Below are positions 1,074 through 7,211 of a stretch of 26,724 bases of DNA, piece after piece. The notes below the pieces were generated by a model. The model saw nothing but the letters and a program-made list of their open reading frames with translations. It was not told where the DNA came from and did not search any database. Positions within the stretch are counted from its first letter, which is position 1. Each line of letters begins with the position of its first letter. The translations under genes and the position numbers were made by a program. The DNA comes from a virus, in the IMG/VR virus record IMGVR_UViG_3300010883_000359, positions 1 through 26,724 of that record; one strand, written 5' to 3'.

Positions 1074-1245
1074 AATTGAAAATTCATGCACTTTTGAACT
1101 GTGCTTTGTTTGCGAAAAGTCTGAGCCAGATAAGAAAGTATTTGCCAAAAGAACCGAAAGACCCCAACTAACAGAAATCTTTGTAATGCACGGAAAATGT
1201 ATTCCTAAGTTCAGGGAGAAGATAGATGAAAATAACATATGTTAA
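1057..1245 (+). CDS. small Cys-containing hypothetical protein
   Basis: A 62-residue protein with a Cys-x2-Cys pair (CFVCEKSEPDKKVFAKR) followed by HGKCIPKFREK. This spacing suggests a small treble-clef or HNH-like zinc site, with three Cys and one His in about 35 residues. Start ATG at 1057 overlaps the previous peptide by 17 bases, and the end overlaps the ParB-like gene by 20 bases. No catalytic residues can be named. It sits immediately before the DNA-modification cassette and could belong to it or to the preceding small-gene group. Confidence 0.5.
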   Translation: MLQIDKIENSCTFELCFVCEKSEPDKKVFAKRTERPQLTEIFVMHGKCIPKFREKIDENNIC

Positions 1246-1708
1246 GACAGATGATAATGTAATAAAGGAATATGAAAATAATCCAAGAATAAATAATAAG
1301 GCAATAGATGCCGTTGCACACTCGATAGAAAAATATGGATTTAAGCAACCCATTGTATTATCTAAGGACGGAACTATCGTTGTTGGTCATACTAGGTATC
1401 TTGCGGCAAAACAATTAGAGCTTGATAAGGTACCAGTTATATATTCGGACTTAACTGAGGAACAAGAAAGAGCATATAGAATAGCTGATAACAAAACAAA
1501 TCAATTCTCAGCTTGGGATTATATGTTATTGGAAGAAGAATTTAATAAGTTGAATCTTCTTAACTATGAGCCTTCCGATTTAGGTTTTACAAAAATGGAA
1601 CTAGAAAATATGTTCCTAGAAAAAAATACAGACAATGACTTTGAAGAAATATCCGAAACCTTAAAGACAAAAAACAAATGTCCTTCTTGTGGTTTTGAAT
1701 ATGATTAA
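1226..1708 (+). CDS. ParB/IbrB-like nuclease-fold protein with Cys pair at C-terminus
   Basis: A 160-residue protein with the ParB/Srx fold: ENNPRINNKAIDAV (residues 17-30), SIEKYGFKQPIVL, the phosphate-binding loop GHTRYLAAKQL (54-64), VPVIYSDL, then the helical section YRIADNKTNQFSAWD. This is the phage type usually seen alone or fused to DNA methylases, not the chromosome-partition type with a helix-turn-helix. It ends in KNKCPSCGFEYD, half of a zinc ribbon. The ribosome binding site AGGGAGAAG lies just before the start. It overlaps the PP-loop gene by 8 bases. ParB-like and PP-loop proteins occur as the pair IbrB/IbrA elsewhere, so it may act with the next gene, for example as a DNA- or nucleotide-binding partner. 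Confidence 0.8.
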   Translation: MKITYVKTDDNVIKEYENNPRINNKAIDAVAHSIEKYGFKQPIVLSKDGTIVVGHTRYLAAKQLELDKVPVIYSDLTEEQERAYRIADNKTNQFSAWDYMLLEEEFNKLNLLNYEPSDLGFTKMELENMFLEKNTDNDFEEISETLKTKNKCPSCGFEYD

Positions 1709-2486
1709 TAAAATTATAGAAGAAGTTATTAATAATAAAGTAAATAGTAAAAATGTTGCAATATTACTATCTGGTGGAGTAGATAGTATATCTGTTGCTT
1801 TTGCTTGTGATAATCTTAAAAAAAAAATATCAGCACATTCATTTAAAATTAATAATATAAAAAATTATGATTCTGAAATGGCTGAAATAATATCAAAAAA
1901 ATTTAATTGGTTATTCCATTTACATGAAATAGATAAAAAAAATTTAGAGAAAGATTTTCATAAATTGAAAGAACTTGGTTGTTATAAAAAAACTCACTTT
2001 GAGTGTATATATCCTTTTTTACATTTATTTCAAAAAATTAAAGAAAAATATATTATTACAGGTTGGGCGGCAGACGGGTATTATGGAATCAGTAAAAGTG
2101 CAATGATAAATTTTAGAGAACCAAAAAAAAAGTTTGATTATTTTAGAAATAAATATTTTATGGAACATAATAGAGCAGGATTTTTTTTATTAAAAAAATT
2201 ATCTAAGTTACATAATAAAATTTTAGTTGCACCATATTTATCAGAGGAGGTAAAAGAATTTTTTTATAAAAAAGATTGGCATGAATTAAATAAACCTTTT
2301 CAAAAACATCATGTAAGAAAATCATTTAATCAATTTGAAAAATTACCGTTTATAAAAAAACATATTAATTTACAAATTGGTTCGGGTATTAATAAATTAT
2401 TTGAAACATTAATAGATAATAAAAAAATAAATTTTAAGAAAAGAAAAAGAGTTATGGATATTTGTAGGGATTGGTCAAAAATATGA
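1701..2486 (+). CDS. asparagine-synthetase-type PP-loop ATP pyrophosphatase, no glutaminase domain
   Basis: The 261-residue product has the PP-loop ILLSGGVDSISVAF (residues 21-34), a second motif TGWAADGYYGIS (120-131) in the place of TGDGADELFGGY of asparagine synthetases, and the later pattern LVAPYLSEEVKEFF...KPFQKHHVRKSF, like their C-terminal domain. Such domains adenylate a carboxylate and let an amine attack it. The N-terminal glutaminase domain of AsnB is absent, so ammonia or an amine must come from elsewhere. The start is ATG 1701 (8-base overlap with the ParB gene); a GTG at 1689 is possible but weaker. The gene is far more AT-rich than its neighbours (11 G/C of 60 bases at 2161-2220). 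A thiolation role is an alternative. In context I infer amidation of a modified base. Confidence 0.75.
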   Translation: MINKIIEEVINNKVNSKNVAILLSGGVDSISVAFACDNLKKKISAHSFKINNIKNYDSEMAEIISKKFNWLFHLHEIDKKNLEKDFHKLKELGCYKKTHFECIYPFLHLFQKIKEKYIITGWAADGYYGISKSAMINFREPKKKFDYFRNKYFMEHNRAGFFLLKKLSKLHNKILVAPYLSEEVKEFFYKKDWHELNKPFQKHHVRKSFNQFEKLPFIKKHINLQIGSGINKLFETLIDNKKINFKKRKRVMDICRDWSKI

Positions 2487-3460
2487 GATATGGTGTTTCA
2501 TTCTTTTCTGGTTGTGGCGGTTCAAGTCTGGGATATAATCTTGCAGGCGTAAAGATATTGTATGCGAATGAGTTTGTTCTCAAAGCATCTGACACATATA
2601 AATTAAATTTTCCAGATACCTATATTGATACAAGAGATATAAGGACAGTAGATGCTCAGGAAGTATTGGATATTATTAAACTTAAAAAAGGCGAGCTCGA
2701 TTTTTTAGATGGCTCCCCTCCATGCGCATCATTCTCAACAGCGGGTAGAAGGGAAAAGAGTTGGGGGAAGGTAAAAAATTATTCTGGTACAAAACAAAGA
2801 ACAGATGATTTATTTTTTGAGTATATAAGAATGGTAGACGGCATACAACCTAAAGTATTTATTGCTGAGAATGTAAGAGGACTAATTCAGGGGAAAGCAA
2901 AAGGACACTTTAATATATTTTTAAGGGAGTTCAAAAAATTAAATTATAATGTTAAAGCATCATTGCTTGATGCGAGTTATCTTGAAGTGCCGCAGGCAAG
3001 AAAACGTGTTTTTATAATTGGGGTAAGAAAAGATTTAAACAAAGAGCCTAGTTTTCCTAAGAAACATAAGCAGATGATAGTTAAACCTATACACGATAAA
3101 AATTATCCTATTGAACCAGAGGCATGGAAGTTACATAAATGTTATTTACCATACCTTGAGTATTTAAAAATGGGAGAGCAACCGCAAAAGAAATTCTTTT
3201 CTTTAAAAAGAAATCATTTTTATAGACCTAGTTATACAATAACAGCTACCTATGCTAAAGGTGCTTGTGTTATGCACCCTACTGAAGACAGACATATGTC
3301 CATTGCTGAGTTAAAAGATATTTGTTCATTCCCTCAGAGCTTTAAATTAATAGGAAAATATGAGGATAAGTGTGAAAGACTAGGTAGAAGTGTACCTCCG
3401 AACATGATGAAGAATATTGTTTTAAATTTAAGAAGGAAAATATTTAATGAAAATCCCTAA
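2483..3460 (+). CDS. cytosine-C5 DNA methyltransferase with Arg in motif X (possible carboxymethyltransferase)
   Basis: A 325-residue enzyme with all main C5-methyltransferase motifs: I FSGCGGSSLG (residues 8-17), IV GSPPCASFS with catalytic Cys81, VI AENV (128-131), VIII QARKRVFIIG (171-180), the variable target-recognition part (about 181-247), IX RPSYTITAT (248-256) and X. Motif X reads RLGRSVPPNMM, with Arg302 where nearly all relatives have Asn (GNS). That Asn lies by the methyl donor. As I recall, replacing it with Arg or Lys in engineered enzymes permits carboxy-SAM as donor. The start is ATG 2483, overlapping the previous stop (ATGA); TTG 2471 is less likely. It overlaps the CmoA-like gene by 14 bases. 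Transfer to cytosine C5 is secure by family; carboxymethyl transfer is inferred. Confidence 0.93.
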   Translation: MRYGVSFFSGCGGSSLGYNLAGVKILYANEFVLKASDTYKLNFPDTYIDTRDIRTVDAQEVLDIIKLKKGELDFLDGSPPCASFSTAGRREKSWGKVKNYSGTKQRTDDLFFEYIRMVDGIQPKVFIAENVRGLIQGKAKGHFNIFLREFKKLNYNVKASLLDASYLEVPQARKRVFIIGVRKDLNKEPSFPKKHKQMIVKPIHDKNYPIEPEAWKLHKCYLPYLEYLKMGEQPQKKFFSLKRNHFYRPSYTITATYAKGACVMHPTEDRHMSIAELKDICSFPQSFKLIGKYEDKCERLGRSVPPNMMKNIVLNLRRKIFNENP

Positions 3461-4100
3461 AAACTGGACTTTTGAGGATAAAGATGTAGCAAAGAACTTT
3501 GATAATCATGTCAGAGAGCAGTTACCGTGGTATGACCTAGCCACGCAGAGTATCGTACATATATCAAGACACTATATACCCTACAAAGGACTGGTCTATG
3601 ACCTCGGTGCAAGTATAGGTAATATAGGAAATGCTATTAAAGATATACTAAAAGAAAGGAATTGTGAGTTTATTGCTATTGAAAAGAGCAAAGAAATGGC
3701 AGAAATATATAATTGTGACTACGGAGAGCTTGTTATCCAGAATATTAATGGGTACAACTACAAAAAGTTTGATGTTTGTATATCTTTTTTAACATTAATG
3801 TTCTTAGAACCTAAGTATAGAGCCGATTTTTTAGACAATTTATACTCAAATCTTCACGAAGGAGGCGCAATAATCATCTTTGATAAGATAGAAAGTGATG
3901 GAGGATATATAGGAACGATAAATTTAAGACTAACGCTTGCTGAAAAGATTAAAAAAATAGAAAATTATAAGGAAATAATAGATAAGGAACTGAGTTTATC
4001 TGGTATACAAAGACCGATTAAGTATAAATTATTAGAAAAATACAATCCTAGCCTGTTTTTTAGGTTCGCAGACTTCGTAGGATATATTATTGAGAAGTAA
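3447..4100 (+). CDS. CmoA-like carboxy-SAM synthase / class I SAM enzyme
   Basis: A 217-residue Rossmann-fold SAM enzyme. It follows CmoA closely from the N-terminus: WTFEDKDVAKNF (7-18), QLPWYD with Tyr29, VYDLGASIGNIG (50-61), FIAIEKSKEM (75-84), LMFLEPKYRADFLDNLY (117-133) and GGAIIIFDKIE (139-149). CmoA turns SAM and prephenate into carboxy-SAM for the tRNA enzyme CmoB; no CmoB-like gene is present here. E. coli CmoA binds the carboxylate through an Arg (199, from memory). That segment is shorter here and has no obvious match, with Arg189 in SGIQRPI the best candidate. It is coupled to the methyltransferase gene by a 14-base overlap. Alternatively it is an ordinary SAM methyltransferase. 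Confidence 0.75.
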   Translation: MKIPKNWTFEDKDVAKNFDNHVREQLPWYDLATQSIVHISRHYIPYKGLVYDLGASIGNIGNAIKDILKERNCEFIAIEKSKEMAEIYNCDYGELVIQNINGYNYKKFDVCISFLTLMFLEPKYRADFLDNLYSNLHEGGAIIIFDKIESDGGYIGTINLRLTLAEKIKKIENYKEIIDKELSLSGIQRPIKYKLLEKYNPSLFFRFADFVGYIIEK

Positions 4101-4101
4101 A

Positions 4102-4527
4102 ATGAAGTGGATAATCAATAAAAACAATAAAAAACAATGTTTAGACTATATAAATGAGCTAAAAACAGATGAAAAGTATACTGTTGAGGTCAAAAAACCA
4201 AGCAGAAGTGATATGCAGAACAATACTGTGTTCATGTGGTATAAGGAAATAGCATTAGCAAAGGGAGATGAGACAGCTACAGACATAAGAGCGTACTGTA
4301 AACTCCATTTTGGAGTAGGAATATTAAGGGAAGATAATGAAGAATTTAGAATTGCATATGATAAAGTAATAAAACCATCACATTATAATAATAAATTATT
4401 AGCTATGGTTGAACCTTTGGACTTTCCCGTTACCAGAATGATGACAACCGACCAGATGCAAAGATATATGGACTGTGTTCAAGAGTTTGGCTATTCAGTT
4501 AATGCGGAACTAACTATACCTATTTAG
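4102..4527 (+). CDS. ninB: NinB-like recombination protein
   Basis: A 141-residue protein matching NinB, a DNA-binding recombination mediator of lambdoid phages (part of the Orf family). Visible family features are KKPSRSDMQNNTVFMWYKEIA (from residue 31), with the RSxxQN motif and aromatic helix, a conserved Lys in AYCKLHFG (64-71), and the C-terminal MMTTDQMQRYMDCVQEFG (113-130). The start chosen is ATG 4102, one base after the preceding stop; TTG 4090 would run back into the CmoA-like gene. It marks resumption of the standard nin-like order after the modification cassette. Confidence 0.72.
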   Translation: MKWIINKNNKKQCLDYINELKTDEKYTVEVKKPSRSDMQNNTVFMWYKEIALAKGDETATDIRAYCKLHFGVGILREDNEEFRIAYDKVIKPSHYNNKLLAMVEPLDFPVTRMMTTDQMQRYMDCVQEFGYSVNAELTIPI

Positions 4528-4529
4528 AT

Positions 4530-4922
4530 ATGACTACAGCGAAGGACGATATAAAACGTATTGACGCTGTGCTTTACTCTTGGGCTAAATGGGTCAAGTC
4601 AGGCGGTTCATTGAAGTTCTTAGGTTACCCAACAAGTTCACCATTTGTCATTAAAGGTTCTGGTGTCAGACTTGATGAATTAATGATGACAGAAGTTGAC
4701 CATGTGATAGGAAGATTAGAACAACCATACAAAAGAATAATCAGACGAGCATACTTAGACGAAAGACCATTAAACTCCACAAGAAAAGATAGCCATTATT
4801 ATAGTTATGACAGAACACAGAAAGAAATGGCTAAGACAGAGAAGATGACAGTAGCTAACTTCTCAGATGTGTTAAGAATGGCAAGGCATAGATTGATTGG
4901 TGCGTTACAACATTTATTGTAA
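4530..4922 (+). CDS. late antitermination/Q-like regulator
   Basis: A 130-residue protein with an N-terminal WAKWVKSGGSLKFLGYP segment (18-34), a middle VDHVIGRLEQPYKRIIRRAYLDE (56-78), and a C-terminal helix-turn-helix-like stretch (KMTVANFSDVLRMARHRLIGAL, 105-126) resembling sigma region 4. This arrangement (Trp-containing start, RxxIxxxYLD middle, C-terminal recognition helix) is that of phage Q-type antiterminators and ArpU/RinA-like late activators. It lies after NinB and before the late genes, where Q sits in lambdoid phages, so control of late transcription is likely. Assignment is by pattern and position. Confidence 0.5.
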   Translation: MTTAKDDIKRIDAVLYSWAKWVKSGGSLKFLGYPTSSPFVIKGSGVRLDELMMTEVDHVIGRLEQPYKRIIRRAYLDERPLNSTRKDSHYYSYDRTQKEMAKTEKMTVANFSDVLRMARHRLIGALQHLL

Positions 4923-5005
4923 AAGCATTGTATCTAAATAATTATGATGGTAGTATTTTATGCCAAGATAGTGTTACTCCCGATATAAATTCACAGGAAC
5001 TAATT

Positions 5006-5281
5006 ATGATATATAAAGCGATAACGACAGGTCAGGTTACAACGACAGCAGAAATACCTTGCCCGTCAGGTCTATTCGCAGTATCACTCGTGGCTGATGG
5101 CTCTAACTCTGCCAACGCTATAGTAAAGAAAGATACATCAAGTGGTGCCGTAGTCTTTGACGCTGATGCAGTTCAATCTGTTTGGTACGCAGGTCCATTC
5201 CATGCTGATGGTGCTACTGAGTTACATCTAACTGTAGCAGGGACAGGCGCAACTGCTCAACTCTTTGAGGTTAAGCCATAA
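5006..5281 (+). CDS. small virion-type beta protein, unknown
   Basis: A 91-residue protein rich in Ala, Gly, Thr and Val with alternating strands (MIYKAITTGQVTTTAEIPCP...FHADGATELHLTVAGTGATAQLFEV), a composition typical of small capsid or fibre-associated proteins. ATG 5006 is chosen because AGGAAC stands just upstream; a TTG at 4928 would add 26 residues of unconvincing sequence. The gap from the Q-like gene (4923-5005) holds nothing I can name. It is the last gene before the inverted-repeat region and terminase. Confidence 0.55.
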   Translation: MIYKAITTGQVTTTAEIPCPSGLFAVSLVADGSNSANAIVKKDTSSGAVVFDADAVQSVWYAGPFHADGATELHLTVAGTGATAQLFEVKP

Positions 5282-5300
5282 TGTATATATACCTCTATAG

Positions 5301-5347
5301 CCCTATGGAGGGGTGTACCCCCTACTAGGGGGCGGTCTCGAAAACCC
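5301..5347 (+). promoter_or_regulatory. nested GC-rich inverted repeats upstream of terminase
   Basis: In an AT-rich genome this stretch is nearly all G and C. It contains CCCT-ATGG-AGGG (5301-5312), GGGG-TGTA-CCCC (5310-5321) and CCCCCTA-C-TAGGGGG (5318-5332), which overlap and so exclude one another, followed by GGGCGGT...ACCCCGC (5330-5350). The two CCC-TA-n-(T)A-GGG palindromes have centres about 18 bases apart. Location between the Q-like gene and the small terminase gene suits a packaging site (cos/pac) bound by the small terminase, a late-gene operator, or an antitermination/attenuation signal. No T-run follows, so a simple terminator is unlikely. Confidence 0.5.
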
Positions 5348-5395
5348 CGCACGCTCACAATTCTTGAAAAGAAACATAATCAAGCTATATAACAC

Positions 5396-5773
5396 ATGAG
5401 TACTGGTCCTAAAACAGGTTGGGGTGGCACAAGACCGAACTCTGGTAGGAAAACAGAGACATTATCAGGCAGACAAGTACAAGTAATGCTTGATAAGGCT
5501 ACTGAATACGAAAAAAAATCAGGTCACTCATTAGATGACATTCTTCTTATGATAATTTATGGGGATAAATTTCAAGGAGACAAAGTACCATTAAAAGATA
5601 GGGTTGCGTGTATCAAATTATTTAAAGAATACACAATGGCAAGATTAACTGAAGGTGGGGATATAGATAACCAAATTGAAATGCCTGTCTGGCTACCAGA
5701 GAAAAAACAAGACCCTGCTAAGTTAATCAACATTGATGACCACAGGGATAAAGATGACGTGGAAACCACATGA
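5396..5773 (+). CDS. terS: terminase small subunit (probable)
   Basis: A 125-residue protein opening with GWGGTRPNSGRKTET (8-22), the Gly/Arg/Pro-rich start typical of small terminase and related DNA-binding packaging proteins, followed by helical sections (RQVQVMLDKATEYEKKSGHSLDDILLMII) and an acidic tail. Small terminase subunits bind the packaging site and hand DNA to the large subunit. It overlaps the large terminase gene by 20 bases and follows the inverted-repeat region. Its ribosome binding site is poor. Family assignment rests on position, length and the N-terminal motif. Confidence 0.65.
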   Translation: MSTGPKTGWGGTRPNSGRKTETLSGRQVQVMLDKATEYEKKSGHSLDDILLMIIYGDKFQGDKVPLKDRVACIKLFKEYTMARLTEGGDIDNQIEMPVWLPEKKQDPAKLINIDDHRDKDDVETT

Positions 5774-7211
5774 AGGTAAGCAGACTGAATTTTGTGAGCT
5801 AGGAACTTTCGAGGCTCTTTACGGTGGTGCGGCAGGTGGTGGTAAAACAGATTGTCTAATCGCACTTGCCACAAGAAATATAAACCACCCAAAATATAAA
5901 GGTGTAATACTTAGAAGAACATTCCCAAGACTACAAGAAGTCATAGATAGATGTTGGGAGCAATACCCTGCTCTTGGTGGGGTTTATCGTTCAACGCAGC
6001 ATAGATGGTTCTTTCCTTCTGGTGCGACTATTCTTTTAGGACATATGCAACATGAAGATGACATGTATGACTATCAGGGTAAACAATATCACTTCATTGG
6101 ATTTGACGAACTAACTCAGTTTACACAAAAACAATATGAGTATCTTGTTCTATCAAGAGCAAGGTCTGTTGAACCAGAGTTACCAGTTGAGGTAAGGGCA
6201 ACAACAAATCCTGGCGGCATTGGTCATATGTGGGTTAAGGATAGATTCATAAATGTAACTGCTCCGAATCAGATTTTTATAGACCCGACAACAAATACTT
6301 CAAGAATATTTATTCCGGGTTTGGTTTATGATAACCCAACATTAATCAACAACGACCCTCAATATGTAAAACGTCTTGAAGGTTTACCAGAGATTGAAAA
6401 GAAACGATTACTGTATGGTGATTGGGAAATATTTGAAGGGCAGGTGTTTAGTGAGTTATCTCAATCCACTCATGGGTGCGAACCTTTTGACATTCCACCT
6501 GATTGGGAAAGGTACTGTCTTTTTGATTGGGGATTTGCAAAACCATTCTCCGTAGGTTGGTATGCTGTTGACTATGATGGTAACATCTATCGTTATCGGG
6601 AATACTATGGAATAAAAACTGTTGATGGTAGGACAGAGGCAAATATTGGTGTAAAAAAAATTGCTCAAGAAGTCGCACAGCAAATTTTACGACTTGAAGC
6701 ATTAGATGGGGAAACTCCAAGAATGAGAATTGCAGACCCTTCAATATTTAATGCGCAACCCTCCTTTAGAAAAAGAGAGTGCAGAGGAGAAACTATTGCT
6801 GATGATATGTCTGGTCAAGGATTATTTTTTCTAAAAGCAGATAATGATAGAATCAATGGGAAGCAACAGGTTCATAGAAGATTAGCATTGGTTGAAAGCA
6901 TTAACCCAGATACAGGGGAAATGGAAGAACACCCACAGTTTTACGCTTTTAATAACCAGACACATTTCTGGCGAACTATGATGGAAATACAGGAAAATCC
7001 TAGTAACCCAGAAGATGTAGATACAAAACAGGAAGACCATATTTATGATGAGTTTCGATATATGTGTATGTCACGGCCTGTTAAACCACCGAAAGTTGAA
7101 AGAATACCTGCAGGAACATTCCAAGCAGAACGAAGAAAATTAATCAAGGCAAGACGATATGCTTCCACTCATGGTGTCAGTCTTTCCGTTGCATATAGGC
7201 GAGTAAGATAA
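5754..7211 (+). CDS. terL: terminase large subunit
   Basis: The DNA-packaging ATPase-nuclease, 485 residues. Walker A is YGGAAGGGKT (23-32), Walker B FIGFDE (114-119), and the coupling motif RATTNPGG is at 148-155. The RNase-H-like nuclease part follows: CLFDWGFAKPFSVGWYAVD (255-273), with its first acidic residue at Asp258, RIADPS (325-330), and HIYDEFRYMC (429-438). Length and motif order are normal. ATG 5754 is chosen after AGGGATAAAG; an ATG at 5736 and a TTG at 5733 are in frame but would add only a few unusual residues. It is immediately followed by the portal gene with no spacer. Confidence 0.95.
   Translation: MTWKPHEGKQTEFCELGTFEALYGGAAGGGKTDCLIALATRNINHPKYKGVILRRTFPRLQEVIDRCWEQYPALGGVYRSTQHRWFFPSGATILLGHMQHEDDMYDYQGKQYHFIGFDELTQFTQKQYEYLVLSRARSVEPELPVEVRATTNPGGIGHMWVKDRFINVTAPNQIFIDPTTNTSRIFIPGLVYDNPTLINNDPQYVKRLEGLPEIEKKRLLYGDWEIFEGQVFSELSQSTHGCEPFDIPPDWERYCLFDWGFAKPFSVGWYAVDYDGNIYRYREYYGIKTVDGRTEANIGVKKIAQEVAQQILRLEALDGETPRMRIADPSIFNAQPSFRKRECRGETIADDMSGQGLFFLKADNDRINGKQQVHRRLALVESINPDTGEMEEHPQFYAFNNQTHFWRTMMEIQENPSNPEDVDTKQEDHIYDEFRYMCMSRPVKPPKVERIPAGTFQAERRKLIKARRYASTHGVSLSVAYRRVR

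Follow-up and report, generated by a model that had tools for sequence, protein, structure and literature searches.

A probable cos site upstream of the putative small terminase gene in an uncultured podovirus-like phage lineage

Described packaging sites and the genes of the window

In phage lambda, cosB adjoins the gene for the small terminase subunit (terS), and the large subunit (TerL) is of the GpA type. The locus described here lies just upstream of a putative terS in the window, that is, the whole 26,724-base virus record that we analysed, and it differs from lambda cos in that its predicted overhang is 11 nt long, that a stretch of G- and C-runs stands against the 7-bp cosQ of lambda, and that its TerL matches Terminase_6N. 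Its elements occupy positions comparable to the lambda order cosQ-cosN-cosB, although the GC-rich element is cosQ-like in position only; one conserved box was noticed on the terS side of the predicted cut. The likenesses to lambda would be a fixed staggered cut near terS, a 5' overhang of similar length (12 nt in lambda), an element before the cut and a recognition sequence on the cosB side, the lambda features being those given in PMC4669245 and PMC5557969. Pseudomonas phage PaP3 is described as a cos-packaging phage with the order terS-terL in PMC7672466, and the same is predicted here. However, PaP3 has a 20-nt cohesive sequence (bases 1-20 of its record) compared with 11 nt, its terS starts at position 1979 compared with 54-1081 nt past the cut here, and its TerL is only marginally similar to that of the window, the best segment being 38 aa long with E 2e-5 in a one-against-one comparison. 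Myxococcus phage Mx8 and Bradyrhizobium phage ppBjS10J-1 have related capsid proteins (29-30% identical), but the ppBjS10J-1 ORF taken as TerL by its position has no significant similarity to the window TerL. Packaging of the S10J prophage (ppS10JBj-1) was predicted to be headful from TerL phylogeny, according to PMC10127595.

Profile matches in the window include a P22-like portal protein, a Terminase_6N TerL and an SU10-type adaptor, the capsid protein matches NCBIfam capsid_maj_Podo, and we take the phage to be of the short-tailed (podovirus-like) type. Its nearest phage records are distant, TerL being at most 45% identical, to unannotated gut scaffolds, and the capsid protein at most 31% identical to any record in the phage collection searched. 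The TerL gene (5754-7211, + strand) was assigned from its profile match and a checked start codon, and its product is colinear with, and 60% identical to, that of the relative G001 described below. The putative TerS (125 aa; 5396-5773, + strand) was assigned by its position before TerL and by membership of a family whose 16 proteins can be aligned and are similarly placed; its start at 5396 lies 61 nt past the predicted cut. The TerS of the window matched no named family; across the 16 members no named Pfam family was found in more than one, an unannotated PHROG (15261) matches seven of them (best E 2.5e-5), and a PHROG called 'terminase small subunit' matches two (E 0.21 or weaker). Matches of TerS in the PDB were dismissed as accidental-looking (the best, E 0.0004, is to a cytochrome construct), and its structure model is of low confidence (mean pLDDT 63).

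Three + strand ORFs to the left of the site would form the right end of the packaged genome, namely, a NinB-like protein (4090-4527; phrog_7283 and phrog_72), an ORF at 4530-4922 that matches no family, and a small ORF just left of the site (4928-5281, searched as 4955-5278 and called ORF-4955 here). NinB was sought in 30 records without a hit, tblastn of TerS, ORF 4955-5278 and ORF 4530-4922 against phages gave nothing at E 0.1, and blastn of 5260-5800 against phages returned eight records, at E 0.2-7. Homologues of ORF-4955 are found on either side of the site: left of the predicted cos in the window and in G022 (L184 4230-4508), and right of it in G029 (L244 77-364). In G013 (L175 22-303) the homologue directly precedes terS on a contig that begins just ahead of it, and in G009, G012 and G016 it lies elsewhere. 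From these placements, the gene appears to shift around the packaging region.

Relatives of the phage and the ends of their contigs

Neither exact IMG/VR searches with the window's own motif nor single-sequence searches with TerS or TerL returned a relative, and a first search with a TerL alignment returned at least 80 loci, at best 44% identical among the matches listed. The GC palindromes of those loci were set aside as not demonstrably related to those of the window; for instance, the distant TerL relatives L072 (at 2823 and 2960) and L077 (at 2823) carry CCCCCCTAGTAGGG and then TATATATAC upstream of a putative terS, an arrangement that recalls the window spacer and is a candidate likeness. 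The earlier note had suggested looking for the motif upstream of other small terminase genes of the GWGGxRPNSGRK type; one contig (L090) was found, its TerS shares only 19 aligned residues, and the GC-rich inverted repeat that it carries about 340 nt before the GWGGxRPNSGRK motif (with ACGCCC arms, at 1465) does not resemble that of the window. A degenerate TerL pattern led to locus L094, the first 1129 bases of the 23,166-base contig G001, which is alike in gene order (TerS, TerL and capsid are 49, 60 and 74% identical to those of the window) and begins 88 nt before its terS. Searching with a capsid alignment brought the number of close relatives to 28, of which 26 are from IMG/VR (58-75% identical) and two from GTDB metagenome-assembled genomes (MAGs; 69-70%). 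The IMG/VR relatives are the 26 at or above 58% identity among 80 of 275 loci, the more distant ones being left out, as was one (L246, 32%) of the three GTDB loci. The relatives' lineage was sampled from 23 IMG datasets (counted by hand) and the two MAGs.

Contigs that start near terS were examined for their left ends, and those of 8 of the 28 relatives begin 20-23 nt before a box with the group pattern CRAWTHTTGA upstream of terS, which in the window reads CAATTCTTGA (5358-5367, + strand). The distance is exactly 23 nt in G003, G012, G014, G018, G019 and G029, 22 nt in G030 and 20 nt in G001; before a degenerate box, the contigs of G024 and G011 begin 23 and 18 nt away, respectively, and that of G015 probably also begins at the site. 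With ends spread uniformly over 40 kb, the number expected in a 6-nt register is about 0.008 of 56 ends. On the other side of the site, three contigs stop, those of G011 and G029 being assigned by overlap with their own left ends and that of G025 by resemblance only. Five relatives (G005, G008, G010, G016 and G022) and the window read through a single copy of the site; the contigs of the five relatives were found with the box pattern, relaxed in the case of G022. Altogether the site is seen in 16 of the 28 relatives, or in 17 counting G015. Among the 11 in which it is unseen, eight have contigs that start inside terS or terL or later (G004, G006, G007, G009, G017, G021, G023 and G026), G013 starts 21 nt before the ORF-4955-like gene that abuts its terS, and G002 and G020 have no recognised TerS ahead of TerL. 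In these assemblies, ends of the relatives lie at one fixed position; the window's own contig has its ends elsewhere, and its cos assignment is by homology.

Such ends could also arise if GC-rich runs halted sequencing or assembly, in which case there would be no physical end and the palindromes would serve otherwise. The site is indeed the GC-richest stretch of the window (the richest 50-mer, 5307-5356, has a GC content of 0.68, compared with 0.37 for the window as a whole), and assemblers are known to make errors at contig edges, as stated in PMC5557969. On the side of a cos site, the same paper states that in assemblies the cos ends come to lie at the limits of contigs and that reads spanning cos are obtained from circular or prophage DNA. 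The left-hand contigs, moreover, start past the GC runs at one register (six of them at exactly 23 nt), the right-hand contigs also end beyond the runs, the two ends of G029 overlap by 11 nt with the runs not missing, and six contigs including the window cross the site unbroken. We therefore consider an assembly artefact very improbable.

Two contigs have unusual repeats. Locus L167 1182-1280, just before the predicted cos, is repeated as the last 99 bases of the 43.6-kb contig G005, suggesting a circle of about 42.3 kb plus a 1.2-kb extra branch; and the right end of the 42.3-kb contig of G015 (L257) is a tandem repeat of the GGCGGCCCCTGGCGGGC type, possibly an assembly loop.

Predicted cohesive ends and mode of packaging

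The relative that is complete at both ends with a full 11-nt repeat, CCCCACGCGGG, is the 39,008-bp G029, where the repeat occupies bases 1-11 on the left, lies six bases from the right end, and is the only one of at least 8 nt between the first and last 300 nt. The six bases beyond it (AGATCG) are presumably the start of the usual Illumina adapter. The ends of G011 (41,646 bases) share 5 nt, GTTGG, and joining them there restores the 23-nt register before its degenerate box, with CGCTCGTTGGC as the 11-mer (read by eye). Library enzymes fill in 5' overhangs and degrade 3' overhangs, and phages with 5' cos consequently show the overhang sequence at both ends, according to PMC5557969. Since filled-in 5' sticky ends give exactly the 11-nt repeat seen at the ends of G029, we think it likely that the group has 5' overhangs of 11 nt; a shared complementary overhang of at most about 20 nt is found here indirectly, through the G029 repeat, and the 5-nt overlap of G011 is consistent with it. 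The longest repeat between the first and last 300 nt of G011 and G029 is 11 nt, and neither has a T7-like direct terminal repeat of more than about 100 bp.

The same ends bear on whether the locus is instead a pac site, where headful packaging would start and later cuts would be imprecise. Its nearness to terS, the P22-like portal and the Terminase_6N TerL would fit such a site, and terminase-6-domain TerLs have been assigned to headful packaging by phylogeny (PMC10127595). Headful genomes, however, would be permuted and redundant, whereas here there are fixed ends to the left and to the right of the site, which in G029 overlap by 11 nt, fixed right-hand ends are suggested by G011, G025 and G029, and no circularly permuted, imprecise ends were found in the relatives. 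We regard a pac site as extremely unlikely.

We aligned 15 sequences on the box, namely, those of the window, the five read-through relatives, the eight left ends and G024, leaving out G011, G025 and G015. Columns 0, 4, 7, 8 and 9 of the box are invariant in all 15; this constancy is partly by construction for the read-through contigs, but not for the left ends, which were picked by their nearness to terS. The pattern has 32 matches in the 751 kb of sequence examined (duplicates included), chance matches being among them, such as the one in G021 that lies inside the portal gene and 14 nt from the contig edge. The columns from -23 to -13 have the consensus CYCCNCGNGGG in the 15 sequences, which is partly symmetric, as a site of staggered nicks might be. 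From this homology to the relatives' left ends and the G029 repeat, the predicted 11-nt 5' cohesive overhang (cosN) of the window is GTCTCGAAAAC (5335-5345, + strand), with the cut at about 5334/5335 (+-2) and a 12-nt spacer (5346-5357, + strand) between overhang and box. However, the window departs from the group at the two most conserved columns of the overhang, -20 and -13, each of which is alike in 14 of the 15 sequences, and its cut register may for this reason be off by 1-2 nt.

The sequence left of the cut is known in nine cases, the window, the five read-through relatives and the three right ends. In all nine, a G-rich tract, mostly near GGGGAGGGG, ends 19-24 nt from the cut, and in seven a C-run comes next, 3-6 nt further on; G011, which the tract pattern did not match, and G010 and G022, where the match ended too soon, were read by eye. 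The common layout is a G-run/C-run element, about 20 nt, the 11 nt of the cut, 12 nt, the box, and then terS, either directly or after other genes. Because other ORFs can intervene, terS lies at varying distances past the cut, 54 to 1081 nt across 15 relatives; the intervening ORFs are ORF-4955-like in G029, HAD-like in G003 and ParB-like in G018 (the latter two by eye), and three in number in G014. One would expect an element that regulates terS in cis to remain beside it, which a genome end need not do.

Because the contigs of relatives have their ends at the position homologous to this one and share this layout, we propose that the cos site of this podovirus-like phage is the spacer 5301-5367, with a probability of about 0.88 on sequence comparison. 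Of the two kinds of terminase site that the earlier note had envisaged, cos is strongly favoured by the contig ends and the common layout, and pac is disfavoured by ends that are fixed and not staggered among contigs. That note had also held that genome ends elsewhere, together with palindromes unconserved in relatives, would speak against such a site; in the relatives the evidence favours cos, save for the third palindrome described below, which is absent from most of them in the aligned rows left of the cut. More tentatively, and at slightly less than even odds, the GC-rich element would be cosQ-like and the box with what follows it cosB-like, the box being the candidate recognition element of the terminase.

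A possible course of packaging can be drawn from general knowledge of cos and from the lambda cos features and cos biology described in PMC4669245 and PMC5000459. Replication would produce unit genomes joined at cos, as circles or concatemers, which is the form behind the window; the terminase would bind the terS-side element (the box and what follows) and nick the two strands at 5335-5345, some 11 bp apart, leaving 5' sticky ends. Packaging would run rightwards from the terS end to the next cos. There the GC element, entering last, would signal where packaging halts and the DNA is cut, the part that cosQ plays in lambda; once a new cell is infected, annealing of the sticky ends would restore the junction.

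A cos site is a known kind of signal, and the one proposed here belongs to a lineage without a close isolate among the phage records searched. The assignment would give the packaging mode, the genome start and the likely sticky ends of this uncultured podovirus-like lineage, whose P22-like portal and Terminase_6N TerL could otherwise invite a headful prediction, and would let its genomes be oriented and their completeness judged. It also shows that the stopping points of independent metagenome contigs can locate genome termini with a precision of a few bases.

The GC-rich element and the conserved box

The GC-rich element, the cosQ-like candidate on the right-end side of the genome, is CCCTATGGAGGGG-TGTA-CCCCCTACTAGGGGG (5301-5332, no strand assigned). 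The three overlapping inverted repeats reported in it earlier are confirmed, CCCT/AGGG (5301-5304/5309-5312), GGGG/CCCC (5310-5313/5318-5321) and the strongest perfect one, CCCCCTA/TAGGGGG with a 1-base loop, C (5318-5324/5326-5332), together covering 32 bases; so is a fourth, GGCGGT...ACCCCGC (5331-5336/5344-5350), which forms an imperfect dyad around the predicted cut (5331-5350, no strand assigned). CCCCCTA/TAGGGGG is the sole pair of perfect 7-bp arms with at least five G/C and a loop of at most 8 in the window. However, at least one pair of this class also occurs in 20 of 100 dinucleotide shuffles of the window, and the palindrome taken alone is only mildly unusual; what the palindromes mean could not be derived from the window by itself. 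The idea of paired binding sites about 18 bases apart was not borne out as such; what the group has in common is a G-run with a C-run, at 19-24 nt to the left of the cut.

An RNA element was also suggested, in which alternative hairpins would steer late transcription downstream of a Q-like gene. The site does precede late genes, and the 45 nt left of the inferred cut, in whose best fold the repeats become parts of a single long imperfect hairpin, outdo mononucleotide shuffles in folding (z -3.8 for the window; mean z -2.25 in the nine sequences, five of them below -3). The excess disappears against dinucleotide shuffles (window z -1.1, with 36 of 300 shuffles as good; mean z -0.36 in the nine, the best being G029 at -2.0), and the whole 114-nt spacer folds no better than such shuffles (z -1.36). 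Each of the four central G-C pairs holds in seven of the nine sequences, but the RNAalifold covariation term is unfavourable (+0.52), no Rfam family matches the site, and no terminator-like site was found here. A structure conserved by covariation or stability, as a regulatory RNA should have, was thus not found. Furthermore, the ORF called Q-like (4530-4922) matches no Q family in HMM searches, and ORF 4928-5281 intervenes between it and the palindromes; G029, G014, G003 and G018 have ORFs between site and terS, yet the distance from box to contig end is constant; and the site would divide the two ends of the packaged genome. We therefore find the RNA switch hardly credible. There is pairing potential left of the cut because runs of G and C adjoin, and since the fold excess vanishes against dinucleotide shuffles, it is the runs and their place, not base pairing, that seem to be kept, the hairpin being unproven.

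Under the proposed cos reading, the stop-and-cut signal of this lineage might be recognised through the shape of the DNA and not through its exact letters: a G-run and then a C-run, which in the window form an extended dyad, would bend or extrude about two helical turns from the cut, and the sequence could drift as long as the two tracts and the spacing are preserved. We regard this as improbable, its odds, low at the outset, having been lowered since the dinucleotide control took away the evidence for extra hairpin strength.

That the box is the -35 element of a late promoter, the GC part being incidental, is exceedingly unlikely: the window has TTGAAA and, 18 nt on, TATAAC (five of six matches to TATAAT), but the best -10 matches at spacings 15-19 total 43 over the 15 sequences, compared with 49.4 for shuffles, and the conserved box reaches left of TTGA.

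Three further observations concern the relatives and the rest of the window. The two GTDB relatives, G029 (L244/L252) and G030 (L245), are in MAG bins named Dehalococcoidales and Gottesmanbacteria, which is a possible host hint or else a binning error. In G020 (L182, about 389-1490), TerL is apparently interrupted near Walker A by an intein-like insertion (by eye), the TerL match resuming at residue 21-25. Finally, a ParB-like domain protein, an asparagine-synthase-like protein, a cytosine-5 methyltransferase and a methyltransferase-like ORF (by eye) lie in a row at 1226-4100 of the window, perhaps as a DNA-modification cassette.
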